This document shows positions 24,604-30,163 of a stretch of DNA of 64,000 bases, piece by piece (position 1 is the stretch's first letter; each line of letters opens with the position of its first letter). The notes under the pieces were generated by a model that did not search any database, had not been told where the DNA came from, and saw nothing but the letters and a program-made list of their open reading frames with translations. Source of the stretch: Limnochordaceae bacterium (GTDB taxonomy: Bacteria > Bacillota > Limnochordia > Limnochordales > DUMU01); NCBI GenBank assembly GCA_014896305.1, contig JADBKQ010000006.1, positions 1 through 64,000 of the forward strand, given 5' to 3'. The translations under genes were made by a program, and so were the position numbers.

Positions 24604-25884
24604 GTGAGCAGAGTCGCGGCTACCGCCGTGCGCGGGACGAGGGATGTTCTGCCTCCGGAGAGCTCCAGCTGGCAGTGGGCGGAAGGGATCGCCCGCCGGC
24701 TGTGCGCCCAATACCACTTTCAAGAGATCCGCACGCCGATCTTCGAAGGGCTGGAAGTCTTCCAGCGGGGGATCGGCGAGACCACCGATATTGTGGAGAA
24801 AGAGATGTATGTTTTCCAGGACCGTTCGGAACGCTGGCTGGCCTTGCGTCCCGAGGGGACGGCCGGGGTGGTGCGTGCCTTCCTTGAACATGGACTGCCG
24901 GCGGGGCCGTTACCAGTGAAGTTCTTCTATCTAGGGCCGATGTTTCGTTATGAACGTCCTCAGGCCGGGCGCTACCGCCAGTTCGAGCAGTTCGGGGTAG
25001 AGGCGTTCGGCAGTGAGAGCCCGGCCCTGGACGTGGAGATTATCAGCTTGGGGACAGCGTTTCTGGAGGCTCTAGGGATATCCGGCTGGCAGGTCCAGCT
25101 CAACACCATCGGTTGCCCCGTCTGCCGCCCCCGTTACCGCCAGCGCCTGTTGGAGCTGCTCAGACCTCGCGCCGATCAACTCTGTGCCAGTTGCCAGAGC
25201 CGGCTGGAGCGGAATCCCTTGCGCGTGTTAGACTGCAAAGAAGAAAGTTGCCGTCGGGTCACGGCCGATGTTCCGGCCCCCGAAGAGTACCTGTGTTCGG
25301 AGTGTGCGGCCCACTGGCAGGCCGTGCAGGAAGGGTTGCGGGCGGTCGGAATCCTCTACCAGGTGACGCCACGGCTGGTGCGCGGCCTCGACTACTATAC
25401 CCGCACCGTTTTTGAACTGATCGCTCCCGGTCTGGGTTCACAGGATGCAGTGTTAGCTGGGGGACGTTACGACGGGCTCGTGGAAGAGATGGGGGGACCA
25501 GCGGTGCCAGGAATCGGCTTTGCGGCCGGGATGGACCGGCTCTTGCTCAGCCTCGAGCAAGGCGGGCAGGGGCGGGCAGCAGAACCGGAACTCGATGTGT
25601 TCGTGGCCAGGGCCGGCGACGTACCGGAGACGGCCGCACTGCAGGTGGTTCAGGAGTTGCGCAAGCAAGGGTGGCGGGTAGACCAGGATTACTTGGGCCG
25701 TAGCTTGAAGGCGCAACTGAAGGCGGCGGACCGGGCCGGCGCACAGTTGACGCTGGTGTTGGGCGAGGCGGAGTGGGCGCAGGGCCAGGTGGTGGTGCGG
25801 ACCATGGCCACCGGCGAGCAGGAGACCGTGAACCGGGCCGTTTTGACCCAGGCGGTGACGACCCGGCTGCAGCGAACAGCTTGA
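24604..25884 (+). CDS. hisS: Histidyl-tRNA synthetase
   Basis: 426 residues, the normal bacterial length. Class II motifs: motif 1 region [43 protein letters not shown], motif 2 [26 protein letters not shown], the His-specific [11 protein letters not shown], motif 3 [14 protein letters not shown], and a C-terminal anticodon-binding domain. The GTG at 24604 follows GAGGGG. An insertion with Cys pairs (CPVCRP, CASC, CKEESC, CSEC at about 170-230) forms a zinc-ribbon-like element seen in some HisRS proteins. The stop is 14 bp before aspS, so the two form an operon. Confidence 0.97.
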
Positions 25885-25897
25885 AGGAGAGGGCTTG

Positions 25898-27862
25898 ATG
25901 GGCGTGGAGAGCGCGGGCGTAGGCAGCACAGGTAGCATGGAAAAGATGGCGGCACGACCGGCACAGCAGGAAGGGCTGAGCGGCCAGGGGCAGGGCGCGG
26001 TGCCTGTTCCGGCAGCCATGCCAGTGTTGACCTCCCAGGAAAGGCAGGCCGACTGGCAGCGCACCCGGTACTGTGGCACGCTGCGACCGGCGGACGAGGG
26101 GCAGCGCGTAGTGCTCAACGGCTGGGTAGCCCGGCGGCGGGACCACGGTGGGTTGATCTTCATCGACCTGCGGGATCGCACGGGTCTGGTGCAGGTCGTT
26201 TTCAACCCGCAAACCGATCCGACCGCGTTTCACCGGGCGGAAGAGGTGCGCACAGAATGGGTGGTGTCAGTCGCGGGCCCGGTGCGGCGTCGGGCGCCAG
26301 ACATGGAGAACCCGAACCTGGCCACAGGTCAGATCGAGGTAGAAGGGCAGCGGCTCGAGGTTCTCAACCGATCGAAGACGCCTCCTTTCCCACTGGACCA
26401 GCCGGAGAACGTGGACGAGGCCATTCGTCTGCACTATCGCTACCTGGACTTGCGCCGTCCGGACATGCTGGGAAATCTGGTCTTGCGCCATCAGTTGGCT
26501 CAAACCACCCGCCAGTATCTGGTGGAACGGGATTTCCTTGAGATAGAAACGCCCATGCTGGCTCGCAGCACTCCGGAAGGGGCCCGAGACTACCTGGTGC
26601 CGAGCCGGTTTAACCCAGGTACGTTCTACGCCCTGACGCAGTCTCCACAGCTTTTTAAGCAGTTGCTGATGGTGGCCGGGGTTGATCGGTACTTCCAAAT
26701 TGTTCGGTGTTTTCGAGATGAGGATCAACGGGCGGATCGGCAGGCGGAGTTCACCCAGATCGATTTGGAGATGTCCTTCATTCAACGGGAAGACGTGCTG
26801 CAGCTGATCGAAGGGCTCACCGCCCGGCTGTTTGCCGTGGCGGGCATTCCGGTGCAGCTACCGATACGGCGGATGACCTACCAGGAGGCCATGCTCCACT
26901 ATGGCTCAGACAAGCCGGACCTGCGCTTTGACCTGCCCATTGAAGATGTGACGCCGGTCTTTGCCGGCAGCGATTTCCAGGTGTTCGCCAAGATCGCGGC
27001 CGGAGGCGGGGTGGTGCGTGCCTTACGAGTGCCAGGCGGCGCTCGCATGAGCCGGCGTGAACTGGACACGTTGGTCGAGCTGGCTCCCCGCTGGGGTTCA
27101 CAGGGACTGGTGTGGATTGCGTTAGATCAGCCGGGGGGCGGCGGCCGTTCACCGGTGGTGAAGTATTTCCACCATGGTGAACTGGAGAAGCTGCGGGAGC
27201 GACTGCAGGCGCAGGAAGGCGACTTGCTCTGCTTGATGGCTGGTCCGGAGCGGCGCACGGCCGAGGCGATGGGGCGGCTCCGCTTGCACTTGGGCCGCGA
27301 GCTGGGCTTGATTCAGCAAGGGGAGCAGGCTGGGCGTCGCTGGCAGCTGCTCTGGGTGGTGGACTTTCCTCTGCTGGAGTGGAGTGAGGAGGACAAGCGG
27401 CTGCAGGCGGTTCACCATCCGTTTACCAGCCCGCTGGAGGAGGACCTGCCTCTGCTGGAGAGCGAGCCGCTCAAGGTGCGGTCGAACGCGTACGACCTGG
27501 TGCTCAACGGGGTAGAGTTGGGCGGCGGCAGCATCCGTATTCATCGGCGCGATGTGCAGGAGCGGGTGTTTCGGGCGCTTGCGATCGACCCGGAGAGGGC
27601 CAGGGAGAAGTTCGGCTTCCTGCTGGAGGCGCTGGAGTATGGTGCACCACCCCACGGAGGTTTTGCCTTCGGGTTTGACCGGATGGTAATGCTCCTGGCG
27701 GGTCGAGACAGCATCCGGGACGTGATCGCCTTCCCCAAGACGCAAAGCGGCCAGGACCTGCTGACCGACGCACCGGCGGCGGTCGATCCACGTCAGCTGG
27801 CGGAGCTGCACATCCTGACCGAGCGGCCGGCGTACGCCGGCACGGAGAGGGAGCGGGGTTAG
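25898..27862 (+). CDS. aspS: Aspartyl-tRNA synthetase
   Basis: About 654 residues. The order is an N-terminal OB fold ([32 protein letters not shown]), the class II core with motif 2 ([19 protein letters not shown] region), a bacterial GAD insertion (about 340-480), and motif 3 [16 protein letters not shown]. The GAD domain marks the bacterial type. It has an unusual N-terminal extension of about 50 Gly/Ala/Gln-rich residues before the OB fold. ATG 25898 lies 8 bases after AAGGAG, which begins at the last base of the hisS stop. Whether it also charges tRNA-Asn cannot be read with confidence; no gatCAB is in the window. Confidence 0.97.
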
Positions 27863-28169
27863 TTCTTTTTTCTTTTTGTTGTCTTGTCGTCTGCCGGGCC
27901 TCTGCCGGGCCAGCGCTCCTCAGGCGTCCCATATGGGCGAGGCGGGCCCATGGTCTTCAGTAATGTCACGGCCTCAGAGTCCCGAGTACTGCAGACTTCC
28001 CGTATGGGCGAGGTGGGCCCATGGAGGTATTGAATCCCGAGCTGCACCACAGCCGTTCCCCGGGCTTAGGGCAAGGTTCCACGAGCCCAAGGAATGGGCT
28101 GCCTCTGCACCGCCTGGCGAGCATGCGCTGACCAAGGTTCGACAAGCCCAAGGAATGGGCGTCCATCTC
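27863..28169. repeat. Two pairs of direct repeats downstream of aspS
   Basis: A 27-bp element (TCCCATATGGGCGAGGCGGG start, 27927-27953) recurs at 27998-28024 with two mismatches (71-bp period) and contains small palindromes. A different 28-bp element (CAAGGTTC start, AGGAATGGGC end) occurs at 28072-28099 and 28133-28160 with two mismatches (61-bp period). A T-rich run directly after the aspS stop (27865-27880) may aid termination. No coding frame is credible. Confidence 0.85.
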
Positions 28170-28198
28170 TTGTCGCCTGCGGGGGGGTGTGCTATAGT
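28170..28198 (+). promoter_or_regulatory. Promoter of the 6S-like RNA
   Basis: TTGTCG at 28170-28175 and TATAGT at 28193-28198, with a 17-bp spacer, predict a start near 28205. That is the exact base of the closing stem of the RNA described next. Confidence 0.75.
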
Positions 28199-28204
28199 GG
28201 GTTG

Positions 28205-28403
28205 CGGGCAGAGTTCCTGCTGTGTTCGTGATCAAGCCGGCAAATGGTATGAGCCAACACCATTTGCATTGGAATTCGGTCTCTGGGTACCGAGGGCAGG
28301 CCCCCCCTGCTTGGGGAAGCTCGCATGGCATCCAGGAGAGTTCCTACCTGCGAGAGCAGGTTCACAACCGGTCGGCACCTAGCGGCATGGCGGGACTGCC
28401 CTT
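28205..28403 (+). ncRNA. ssrS: 6S RNA candidate (RNA polymerase regulator)
   Basis: About 199 nt, the usual 6S length. The 5' end AGTTCCTGCTGTGTTCGTGA closely resembles the start of Bacillus 6S-1 RNA as I recall it. The ends pair: GGGCAG (28206-28211) with CTGCCC (28396-28401), continued after a 2-nt bulge by TTCC with GGGA, forming the closing stem. Internal hairpins include a perfect 9-bp stem at 28240-28248/28259-28267 and a 6-bp stem capped by GAGA at 28346-28361. It has its own promoter and terminator and no ORF. The position right after aspS is a known location for 6S RNA genes in Firmicutes. 6S RNA mimics an open promoter and binds housekeeping RNA polymerase. Another structured RNA cannot be excluded without covariance search. 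Confidence 0.75.
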
Positions 28404-28405
28404 TG

Positions 28406-28434
28406 ACCGAGGAGAGTTTCTCCTCGGTTTTTGT
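28406..28434 (+). terminator. Intrinsic terminator of the 6S-like RNA
   Basis: A 10-bp stem (ACCGAGGAGA 28406-28415 with TCTCCTCGGT 28419-28428) with a 3-nt loop is followed by TTTTGTT. It begins three bases after the closing stem of the RNA. Confidence 0.93.
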
Positions 28435-28469
28435 TATGAGAGCGCTGAATTACCCGACATTCAGCGCTG

Positions 28470-28625
28470 CCCAGGGGGCGTGGCTGGGCCAACGTGGGCA
28501 ACGTGGGGCGCTGGTGGGCCGGGAGGGCATGGCGGGGCCGACGTGGACCGAGGGGGGCGTCGGTGGGCTGCCGGCAGGGGGCATGACTGGGCCGACGAGG
28601 GGCGTTGATGGGCCGACGTGGAGCT
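28470..28625. repeat. Degenerate GGGCCGACG-type repeat
   Basis: Variants of TGGGCCGACGTGG recur irregularly, with the last two copies 21 bp apart. The remaining spacer to 28840 shows no gene. Confidence 0.55.
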
Positions 28626-28840
28626 GCTGATCCTCCCCTGGGTCAATAGCCCTTGTGCTGTCGAGTGAGGTGGACCCCTTCGTTTGGACACCGCAGGCGG
28701 CAGGAGTACGGGGAATTGCGCCGAAGATTGTTCTTGTACTAACACCCAAAGGCTGTACGGACGCCACAGGGACGGGCTGTACGGTTCCCTTTATCCCTGC
28801 GGCTGGTGGCAGCTGAGGGGAAGAAAGGGGTCGGTGAGGC

Positions 28841-30163
28841 ATGGTACACGCTCAGCGTGAAGGGTTTTGGCCATGGGGGTGGAGCAGGCGGGCAGTCGCG
28901 GCGGCAATCGGCATCGCGGCTGCCACGGTGGTTGCAACGGGCCCTGCCCAGGCAGCCAGCAAAGTAACGATTCGCTACCAATACTGGGGTGGGGCGCCGG
29001 AAATCGCTATTGTGGAGCAGGTCGTCAACCAGTTCATGAAGGAACACCCCAACATTGAGGTGAAAGCGGAGAATGTCCCCTATCCTGGGTACAGTGAGCG
29101 AACGACGGCTCTGATTGCTGCGGGTACGGCACCGGACGTTCTCAACGTACCCGTTCAGATGTTTGCCCAGTTGGCGGCCCAGGGCGCCTTCCATGACCTG
29201 GGTCAGCTGGCCAAGCAGGACAAGTCCTTTGATCTGGAAGAGTACATCTTGCCGGCTCGCATGGTCTTCACCTACAACGGCAAGCTAGAAGCGCTGCCGC
29301 GAGAGTTTGGTCCGATGATGATGTTTTACGGCAAGCAAATGTTCGATGAGAAGGGTCTACCATATCCGGACGCTGACTGGACGTGGGACACTTTCCTCAG
29401 TGACGCGCAAAAGCTCACCCGTGATCTCGACGGGGATGGCAAGATCGACCGGTTCTTCTTTGCCGGAAGTTCATGGATCGATGTCTACCTGCCTTTCCTG
29501 TGGGGAGCCGGTGGCGACATTCTCGACAAGAGCGGCAAGTATGCGGTGGTAGACCAGCCCGCGGCCGTCAAGGGCCTGCAGTTTTACGCCGATCTCTTTC
29601 TGAAGTATCACGTCAGCCCGACGTTGGCCGAGAGCTCAAGCCGGGTCAATGTTACTGACTGGTTTACCCGGAACCAAATCGCTGTGTACCCGACCTTCCG
29701 GGCGGGCACAACGGTCTTTTTGAAGCAAAAAGGGTTTGACTTTGACGTTGCTCCGTTCCCGAAGGGGCCGGGTGGATACGCGACGATCGTTGAACCGGTG
29801 GGCGTAGCCATCACCACTCAGACTACTGGTGACAAACTGGAGGCAGCCTGGGAGTTCGCCAAGTACATGACGGGGCCGGTCGGCGTGACGATCATGACCG
29901 AACAGAACCTAATCGTACCGGCCATCGTCTCCGTGGCCAAGAGCAACGCGTTTATTACCCCCAATGTGCCGCCCGCCCACGACCTGGCGTTTATCCAAAT
30001 GCAGCCATACGCGCGCGTCGTGCCCATGGTGCCGCAATGGCCAACCCTGTCGCAGCTTCTTGGCGCTCAGATGAACGCGGTGCTGCAAGGGCAGGAGACC
30101 GTGAGCAACGCCATGAAGAAGGCGGCGGAGCAGATGAACCAGGCGCTGGTGAAGCAGCGGTAG
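28841..30163 (+). CDS. Extracellular sugar-type solute-binding protein (family 1), orphan
   Basis: 440 residues. A signal peptide with basic start (about 12-38, AVAAAIGIAAATVVATGPAQAA) precedes a classic two-lobed binding protein: VTIRYQYWGGAPEIAIVEQVVNQFMKEHPNIEVK, TALIAAGTAPDVLNVP, and WDTFLSDAQKLTRDLDGDGKIDRF, an EF-hand-like calcium loop common in this family, then AAWEFAKYMTGPVGV near the C-terminus. It should capture a sugar or glycerol-phosphate-type ligand for an ABC importer. No permease or ATPase gene is within the window, so its transporter is encoded elsewhere or it has another role. I see no lipobox Cys. Confidence 0.9.
   Translation: MVHAQREGFWPWGWSRRAVAAAIGIAAATVVATGPAQAASKVTIRYQYWGGAPEIAIVEQVVNQFMKEHPNIEVKAENVPYPGYSERTTALIAAGTAPDVLNVPVQMFAQLAAQGAFHDLGQLAKQDKSFDLEEYILPARMVFTYNGKLEALPREFGPMMMFYGKQMFDEKGLPYPDADWTWDTFLSDAQKLTRDLDGDGKIDRFFFAGSSWIDVYLPFLWGAGGDILDKSGKYAVVDQPAAVKGLQFYADLFLKYHVSPTLAESSSRVNVTDWFTRNQIAVYPTFRAGTTVFLKQKGFDFDVAPFPKGPGGYATIVEPVGVAITTQTTGDKLEAAWEFAKYMTGPVGVTIMTEQNLIVPAIVSVAKSNAFITPNVPPAHDLAFIQMQPYARVVPMVPQWPTLSQLLGAQMNAVLQGQETVSNAMKKAAEQMNQALVKQR

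Follow-up and report, generated by a model that had tools for sequence, protein, structure and literature searches.

A 6S RNA gene beside aspS in a probable Limnochordia genome, with a predicted hairpin around the putative pRNA template start

The DNA at 28205–28403 of the window (the whole 64,000-nucleotide stretch that was analysed) almost certainly encodes a working 6S RNA of the ssrS/bsrA type. The gene is otherwise ordinary for its lineage. Its one unusual trait is a predicted hairpin that holds the stretch which RNA polymerase would copy. Family membership, promoter, terminator, covariation of helix P2 and conserved location are established here by calculation, while polymerase binding, synthesis of product RNA (pRNA) and release are taken from established 6S biology. 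The features of the locus are as follows.

24604–25884, +, hisS
25895–27862, +, aspS, aspartyl-tRNA synthetase, with Pfam tRNA-synt_2, GAD and OB domains
27921–28024 and 28072–28160, direct-repeat stretches between aspS and the 6S gene
28170–28198, +, 6S promoter TTGTCG-17-TATAGT with a TG-extended −10, a consensus match
28205–28403, +, predicted mature 6S RNA of about 199 nt, from the RF00013 match and the fold
28206–28211 with 28396–28401, +, base of the closing stem, GGGCAG/CUGCCC, in the MFE structure
28236–28241, +, 5' strand of helix P2a, GCCGGC, with its 3' strand at 28371–28376, from pairing across the class
28240–28267, +, hairpin in the 5' central bubble, 9-bp stem GCAAAUGGU/ACCAUUUGC (28240–28248/28259–28267)
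28245–28258, +, predicted pRNA template, start placed opposite C28258 by homology
28249–28258, +, 10-nt loop of the 5' hairpin, AUGAGCCAAC, holding the predicted template start
28250–28255, +, 5' strand of helix P2b, UGAGCC, inside the 5'-hairpin loop, pairing with GGUUCA at 28359–28364
28346–28361, +, hairpin in the 3' central bubble, ACCUGC-GAGA-GCAGGU, from pairing across the class
28359–28364, +, 3' strand of helix P2b, GGUUCA, overlapping the 3' hairpin by GGU
28405–28434, +, intrinsic terminator, stem-loop at 28405–28429 with an 11-pair stem, a loop of 3 and a T-rich tail
28841–30163, +, solute-binding protein (SBP_bac_1), the next open reading frame after the 6S gene

The original prediction placed a 6S RNA gene at 28170–28434 and named a covariance search with the Rfam 6S model as its check. 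This search is clearly positive. RF00013 matches 28211–28400 (+) with 70.7 bits (E 6e-12, model positions 1–187 of 187; gathering cut-off 46.4 bits), and the locus is the only 6S match in the genome. The 5' end of the RNA agrees with the Rfam consensus. No other Rfam family exceeds its own gathering cut-off in the 64-kb window, and a permissive scan of 27900–28700 returned other families only below threshold, so assignment to another RNA family is rejected. The RNA had also been called a divergent 6S. Its score does rank low within the class (5 of 71 members are lower) but lies well above the cut-off, which makes the divergence mild.

The transcription signals are where they had been predicted. 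A promoter search finds the sigma-70-like TTGTCG-17-TATAGT, one site where 0.1 is expected in shuffles. Of the 69 class 6S genes for which enough DNA lies upstream, 50 have a TG-extended −10 at most 60 bases away; shuffles give 2.4 on average and 7 at most. The 5' end at 28205 and the 199-nt length are predicted from the position of the −10 and the closing stem, whose base forms in the MFE fold at the expected start point. Folded over 28205–28403, the RNA reaches −92.8 kcal/mol (z −3.8), and none of 200 shuffles is equally stable. With these predicted ends it falls within the 160–200 nt rod form of closing stem, central bubble and apical stem. The terminator follows immediately. Terminator-like sites are not rare around 28405 (1.0 expected in shuffles), and a simple terminator test is positive for 49 of the 71 class 6S genes. 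Judged by consensus matches rather than transcripts, the window 6S has a promoter and a terminator to itself, as an independent gene does.

We aligned the 71 class 6S RNAs and scored P2b pairing on 70 distinct rows. The alignment contains P2a (GCUGGC/GUCAGC type), P2b (AUGAGCC/GGUUCAU) and the 3'-bubble hairpin, with the 5'-bubble hairpin in many members. P2b is paired in 96.9% of cells, as against 17–45% for controls in which it was slid, and both sides change at 3 of 7 pairs. One such change, A-U to C-G, is seen in the two nearest relatives. The alignment thus supports the view that helix P2 is kept through compensatory change. Family f5 has a distinct P2 sequence of the AGAACC/GGUUCU type. 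The 3' hairpin is paired in 97.4% of cells. Two extra hairpins had been predicted in the central part of this RNA; the 5' one does depart from the Rfam consensus, in which it is absent, whereas the 3' one belongs to the usual 6S architecture and is described for B. subtilis 6S-1 and for lactic acid bacteria (PMC8876501, PMC8414754).

The 5' hairpin of the window RNA has nine perfect pairs and a local energy of −11.6 kcal/mol (p 0.013 against shuffled flanks). In its commonest register across the class the stem is paired in 74.1% of cells, with both-side changes at 7 of 8 pairs. From one family to the next the register moves, yet a stem is retained. Taken together, the 5' and 3' hairpins give values that 0 of 500 shuffles reach, in shuffles that ignore relatedness. 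Sequence by sequence the picture is uneven: 26 of the 71 class RNAs have a 5' hairpin at p ≤ 0.05 against flank-shuffled controls, and family medians of p run from 0.003 (f8) to 0.987 (f6). A Fisher combination of the 16 family medians gives 1.7e-5, itself an overstated value. Full-length ensembles give at least 4 expected 5'-hairpin pairs for 47 of 71 class RNAs, and for 0 of the 13 in families f3–f7.

6S RNAs outside the class provide a comparison. This outgroup is mainly from the same phylum and biased to high-scoring matches, and includes 30 loci without stated kinship as well as at least one duplicate record and identical pairs. RNAs in which the core pattern was not found were dropped, 32 in all: 5 of the 71 class RNAs and 27 of the 119 outgroup RNAs (12 of 59 and 15 of 60), leaving 92 of the latter to be counted. 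Scored with one metric for both groups, the 5' hairpin is predicted in 46 of 66 class RNAs versus 10 of 47 and 12 of 45 outside. Fisher's test on 47 of 71 versus 22 of 92 yields p 8e-8, which overstates the difference, because related genomes are treated as independent and two ways of counting are mixed. A hairpin universal to the class is rejected, given families f3–f7 and the 26 of 71 that beat shuffles; a class-specific one is rejected by the 22 of 92 outside the class list. The counts indicate a 5' hairpin enriched in the class, neither universal nor unique to it. Two loci outside the class, L218 and L258 (genomes G155 and G193, each with two 6S matches), have very strong 5'-bubble hairpins of −11.3 and −13.0 kcal/mol.

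Does this hairpin do anything? We put at about even chances the reading in which the 6S RNA is genuine and the hairpin incidental, with the conserved flanks maintained because polymerase makes contacts in the 5' bubble, and with no role for their ability to pair with each other. In B. subtilis 6S-1, mutating the 5' bubble is described as altering polymerase binding (PMC8876501), and both the complete absence from f3–f7 and the modest number of RNAs that beat their flank-shuffled controls fit such an explanation. Other observations argue against it. When 3' flanks were dealt anew among families, using one sequence per family for 16 families, an equally stable set arose in 0.025% of shuffles (mean z −4.2), so that a family's own flanks fit better than those of other families. 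The both-side changes and the retention of a stem despite its shifting register point the same way, as does the outgroup, where the mean local energy of the 5' hairpin is no better, or hardly better, than that of shuffled flanks.

The other reading is that the 5' hairpin matters as part of a folding switch. In the calculated ensemble of the window RNA, hairpins occupy both sides of the bubble and the probability of P2b is 0.01; across the class it exceeds 0.5 in 19 of 71 full-length ensembles. Forcing P2b costs a median of 2.8 kcal/mol in the class and 3.0 in the window. The twin-hairpin state is thus favoured over P2b by 3.0 kcal/mol, and for the RNA on its own, folding does not predict the promoter-like form as the ground state. 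We read the modelled competition between the 5' hairpin and P2 as that of a putative switch. Since the 5' hairpin folds locally, about 100 nt ahead of the 3' strand of P2 in transcription, it should form first.

The hairpin would also bear on pRNA growth. Homology of the GAGCCAAC element places the predicted pRNA start at C28258, and the predicted 14-mer is GUUGGCUCAUACCA. The hairpin loop corresponds exactly to the first ten nucleotides of this template. Calculated totals for pRNAs of 10, 11, 12 and 13 nt are −96.7, −96.4, −96.0 and −95.9 kcal/mol, with a gain again at 14 nt; these totals add the duplex energy to that of the RNA with its template held open, and ignore sterics and polymerase. 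Flat totals from 10 to 13 nt predict a build-up of ~10-mers. For G018, the single RNA of the commonest class register to which this calculation was applied, the totals level off nearer 8–10 nt.

These pieces can be placed in the established 6S cycle, in which the RNA mimics an open promoter, binds polymerase carrying the housekeeping sigma factor and is released when pRNA copying unwinds P2 (PMC8876501). From its own promoter, the gene would yield a ~199-nt RNA folded into a rod whose central bubble mimics an open promoter. In the free RNA this bubble may be held as two hairpins, with the 5' one caging the template start. By analogy with known 6S RNAs, polymerase with the housekeeping sigma factor would bind as growth slows. 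Once nucleotides return, it would copy from C28258 to make the short pRNA, which would open helix P2 and free the polymerase. Binding presumably needs P2, and pRNA synthesis would then drive the change between the two states. We offer, as a tentative and rather doubtful proposal, that the 6S RNAs of this class, and scattered ones in other Bacillota, first fold cross-like with a hairpin on either side of the bubble, that the exact template start is caged by the 5' hairpin, which competes both with P2 and with pRNA growth past ~10 nt, and that this switch matters in the cell.

Known 6S systems share most of this architecture. The window RNA has the length, rod shape, closing stem, P2 of UGAGCC/GGUUCA, 3'-bubble hairpin and apical arm of the family (RF00013; E. 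coli ssrS), including the GAGCC element of ssrS. E. coli 6S differs in that about 5 P2 pairs are kept and no 5' hairpin appears in its calculated ensemble; upon pRNA synthesis it is described as forming a long 3' hairpin (PMC8876501). B. subtilis 6S-1, compared here by description, resembles the window RNA in its small 3'-bubble hairpin, already present in free 6S-1 (PMC8876501), and in a G-initiated pRNA, predicted here. It is described as rearranging through a central bubble collapse helix (PMC8876501), whereas in the window RNA the 5' bubble is predicted to pair with the flank upstream of it. The 6S RNAs of lactic acid bacteria are canonical in structure, and a hairpin faces their 5' central bulge; they lie by rarA/uspA rather than aspS, and the accessible part of that report mentions no 5'-bulge hairpin (PMC8414754). 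A 5'-bubble hairpin around the template was not found in the 6S literature searched, a partial coverage of the field, and a search combining 6S RNA and Limnochord found nothing. For E. coli, a small 5' stem-loop near nt 60 is discussed in the 6S:pRNA context (PMC10406553), and for the alternative helix of 'isoform 2' CaCoFold reported no covariation (PMC7657543).

The remaining alternatives concern the gene as a whole. The locus might be a decayed relic or a mere 6S look-alike without function, as its low score within the class and several positions flagged as non-standard pairs in the RF00013 alignment could suggest. We consider this very improbable: that same alignment is full length without large gaps, promoter and terminator are intact, the fold is far more stable than shuffles, P2b and both hairpins can form, and 71 of 72 class genomes carry a 6S. 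A protein-coding locus is less probable still, and a coding role is rejected, for although both strands carry open frames of 101–168 aa across the 6S (e.g. 28222–28608 + and 27966–28331 −), high GC yields long chance frames in many frames, and the 71-genome alignment has indels of many lengths and base-pair-preserving changes, not codon structure.

The location of this 6S gene is conserved. On the + strand the order is hisS, aspS, 6S RNA and solute-binding protein. As in a bacterial AspRS, the aspS frame contains class II D/K/N and GAD domains; its translation may begin downstream of the listed TTG. The original prediction pointed to the aspS-adjacent location known for 6S genes in Firmicutes; within the class, 65 of 71 genomes have aspS upstream of the 6S gene and on its strand. 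Six loci do not show it. In G009 and G010 the 6S match reaches the end of the contig and there is no DNA upstream, and four others (G001–G004, loci L121–L124, families f5 and f6) lack aspS in about 3 kb upstream. B. subtilis bsrA likewise directly follows aspS, and is described as lying between aspS and yrvM (PMC11077062). Here yrvM is not the downstream gene and SBP_bac_1 takes its place. Among the class loci only the window has the solute-binding protein next to 6S: the DNA examined around the other 70 yielded no homologue.

Two direct-repeat pairs fill the aspS–6S gap, one of 33 nt at 27921/27992 and one of 28 nt at 28072/28133. Neither has a further copy anywhere in the genome, so a genome-wide repeat element is rejected and the pairs look like local duplication. 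Directly after the 6S terminator, at 28476–28621, a G-rich unit of 22 nt, GGGCATGGCGGGGCCGACGTGG, is present in four imperfect copies.

The host is probably a high-GC, outer-membrane-bearing member of Bacillota, class Limnochordia, a class described as diderm with a high GC content (PMC11456536). Omp85 gives two matches in the genome, and the control genomes matching this family do not include B. subtilis; an outer membrane is therefore likely, in keeping with the two-membrane lineage originally suggested. Among the 72 class genomes, the window's own included, 71 have a 6S match above the cut-off, and the DNA around all 71 loci was examined. The sole miss, G041 (94% complete), may reflect either a gap in the assembly or a 6S RNA that has changed strongly.

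These results extend 6S RNA and the aspS–6S neighbourhood to a probably deep diderm branch of Bacillota, which suggests that the linkage is old. The gene itself belongs to a known family, and the 5' hairpin is the sole part of specialist interest. If the hairpin is real in the cell, the class offers natural variants with and without it for tests of 6S loading and release. If the proposed switch is true, release via twin hairpins would be a third route beside the 3' hairpin of E. coli and the collapse helix of Bacillus.
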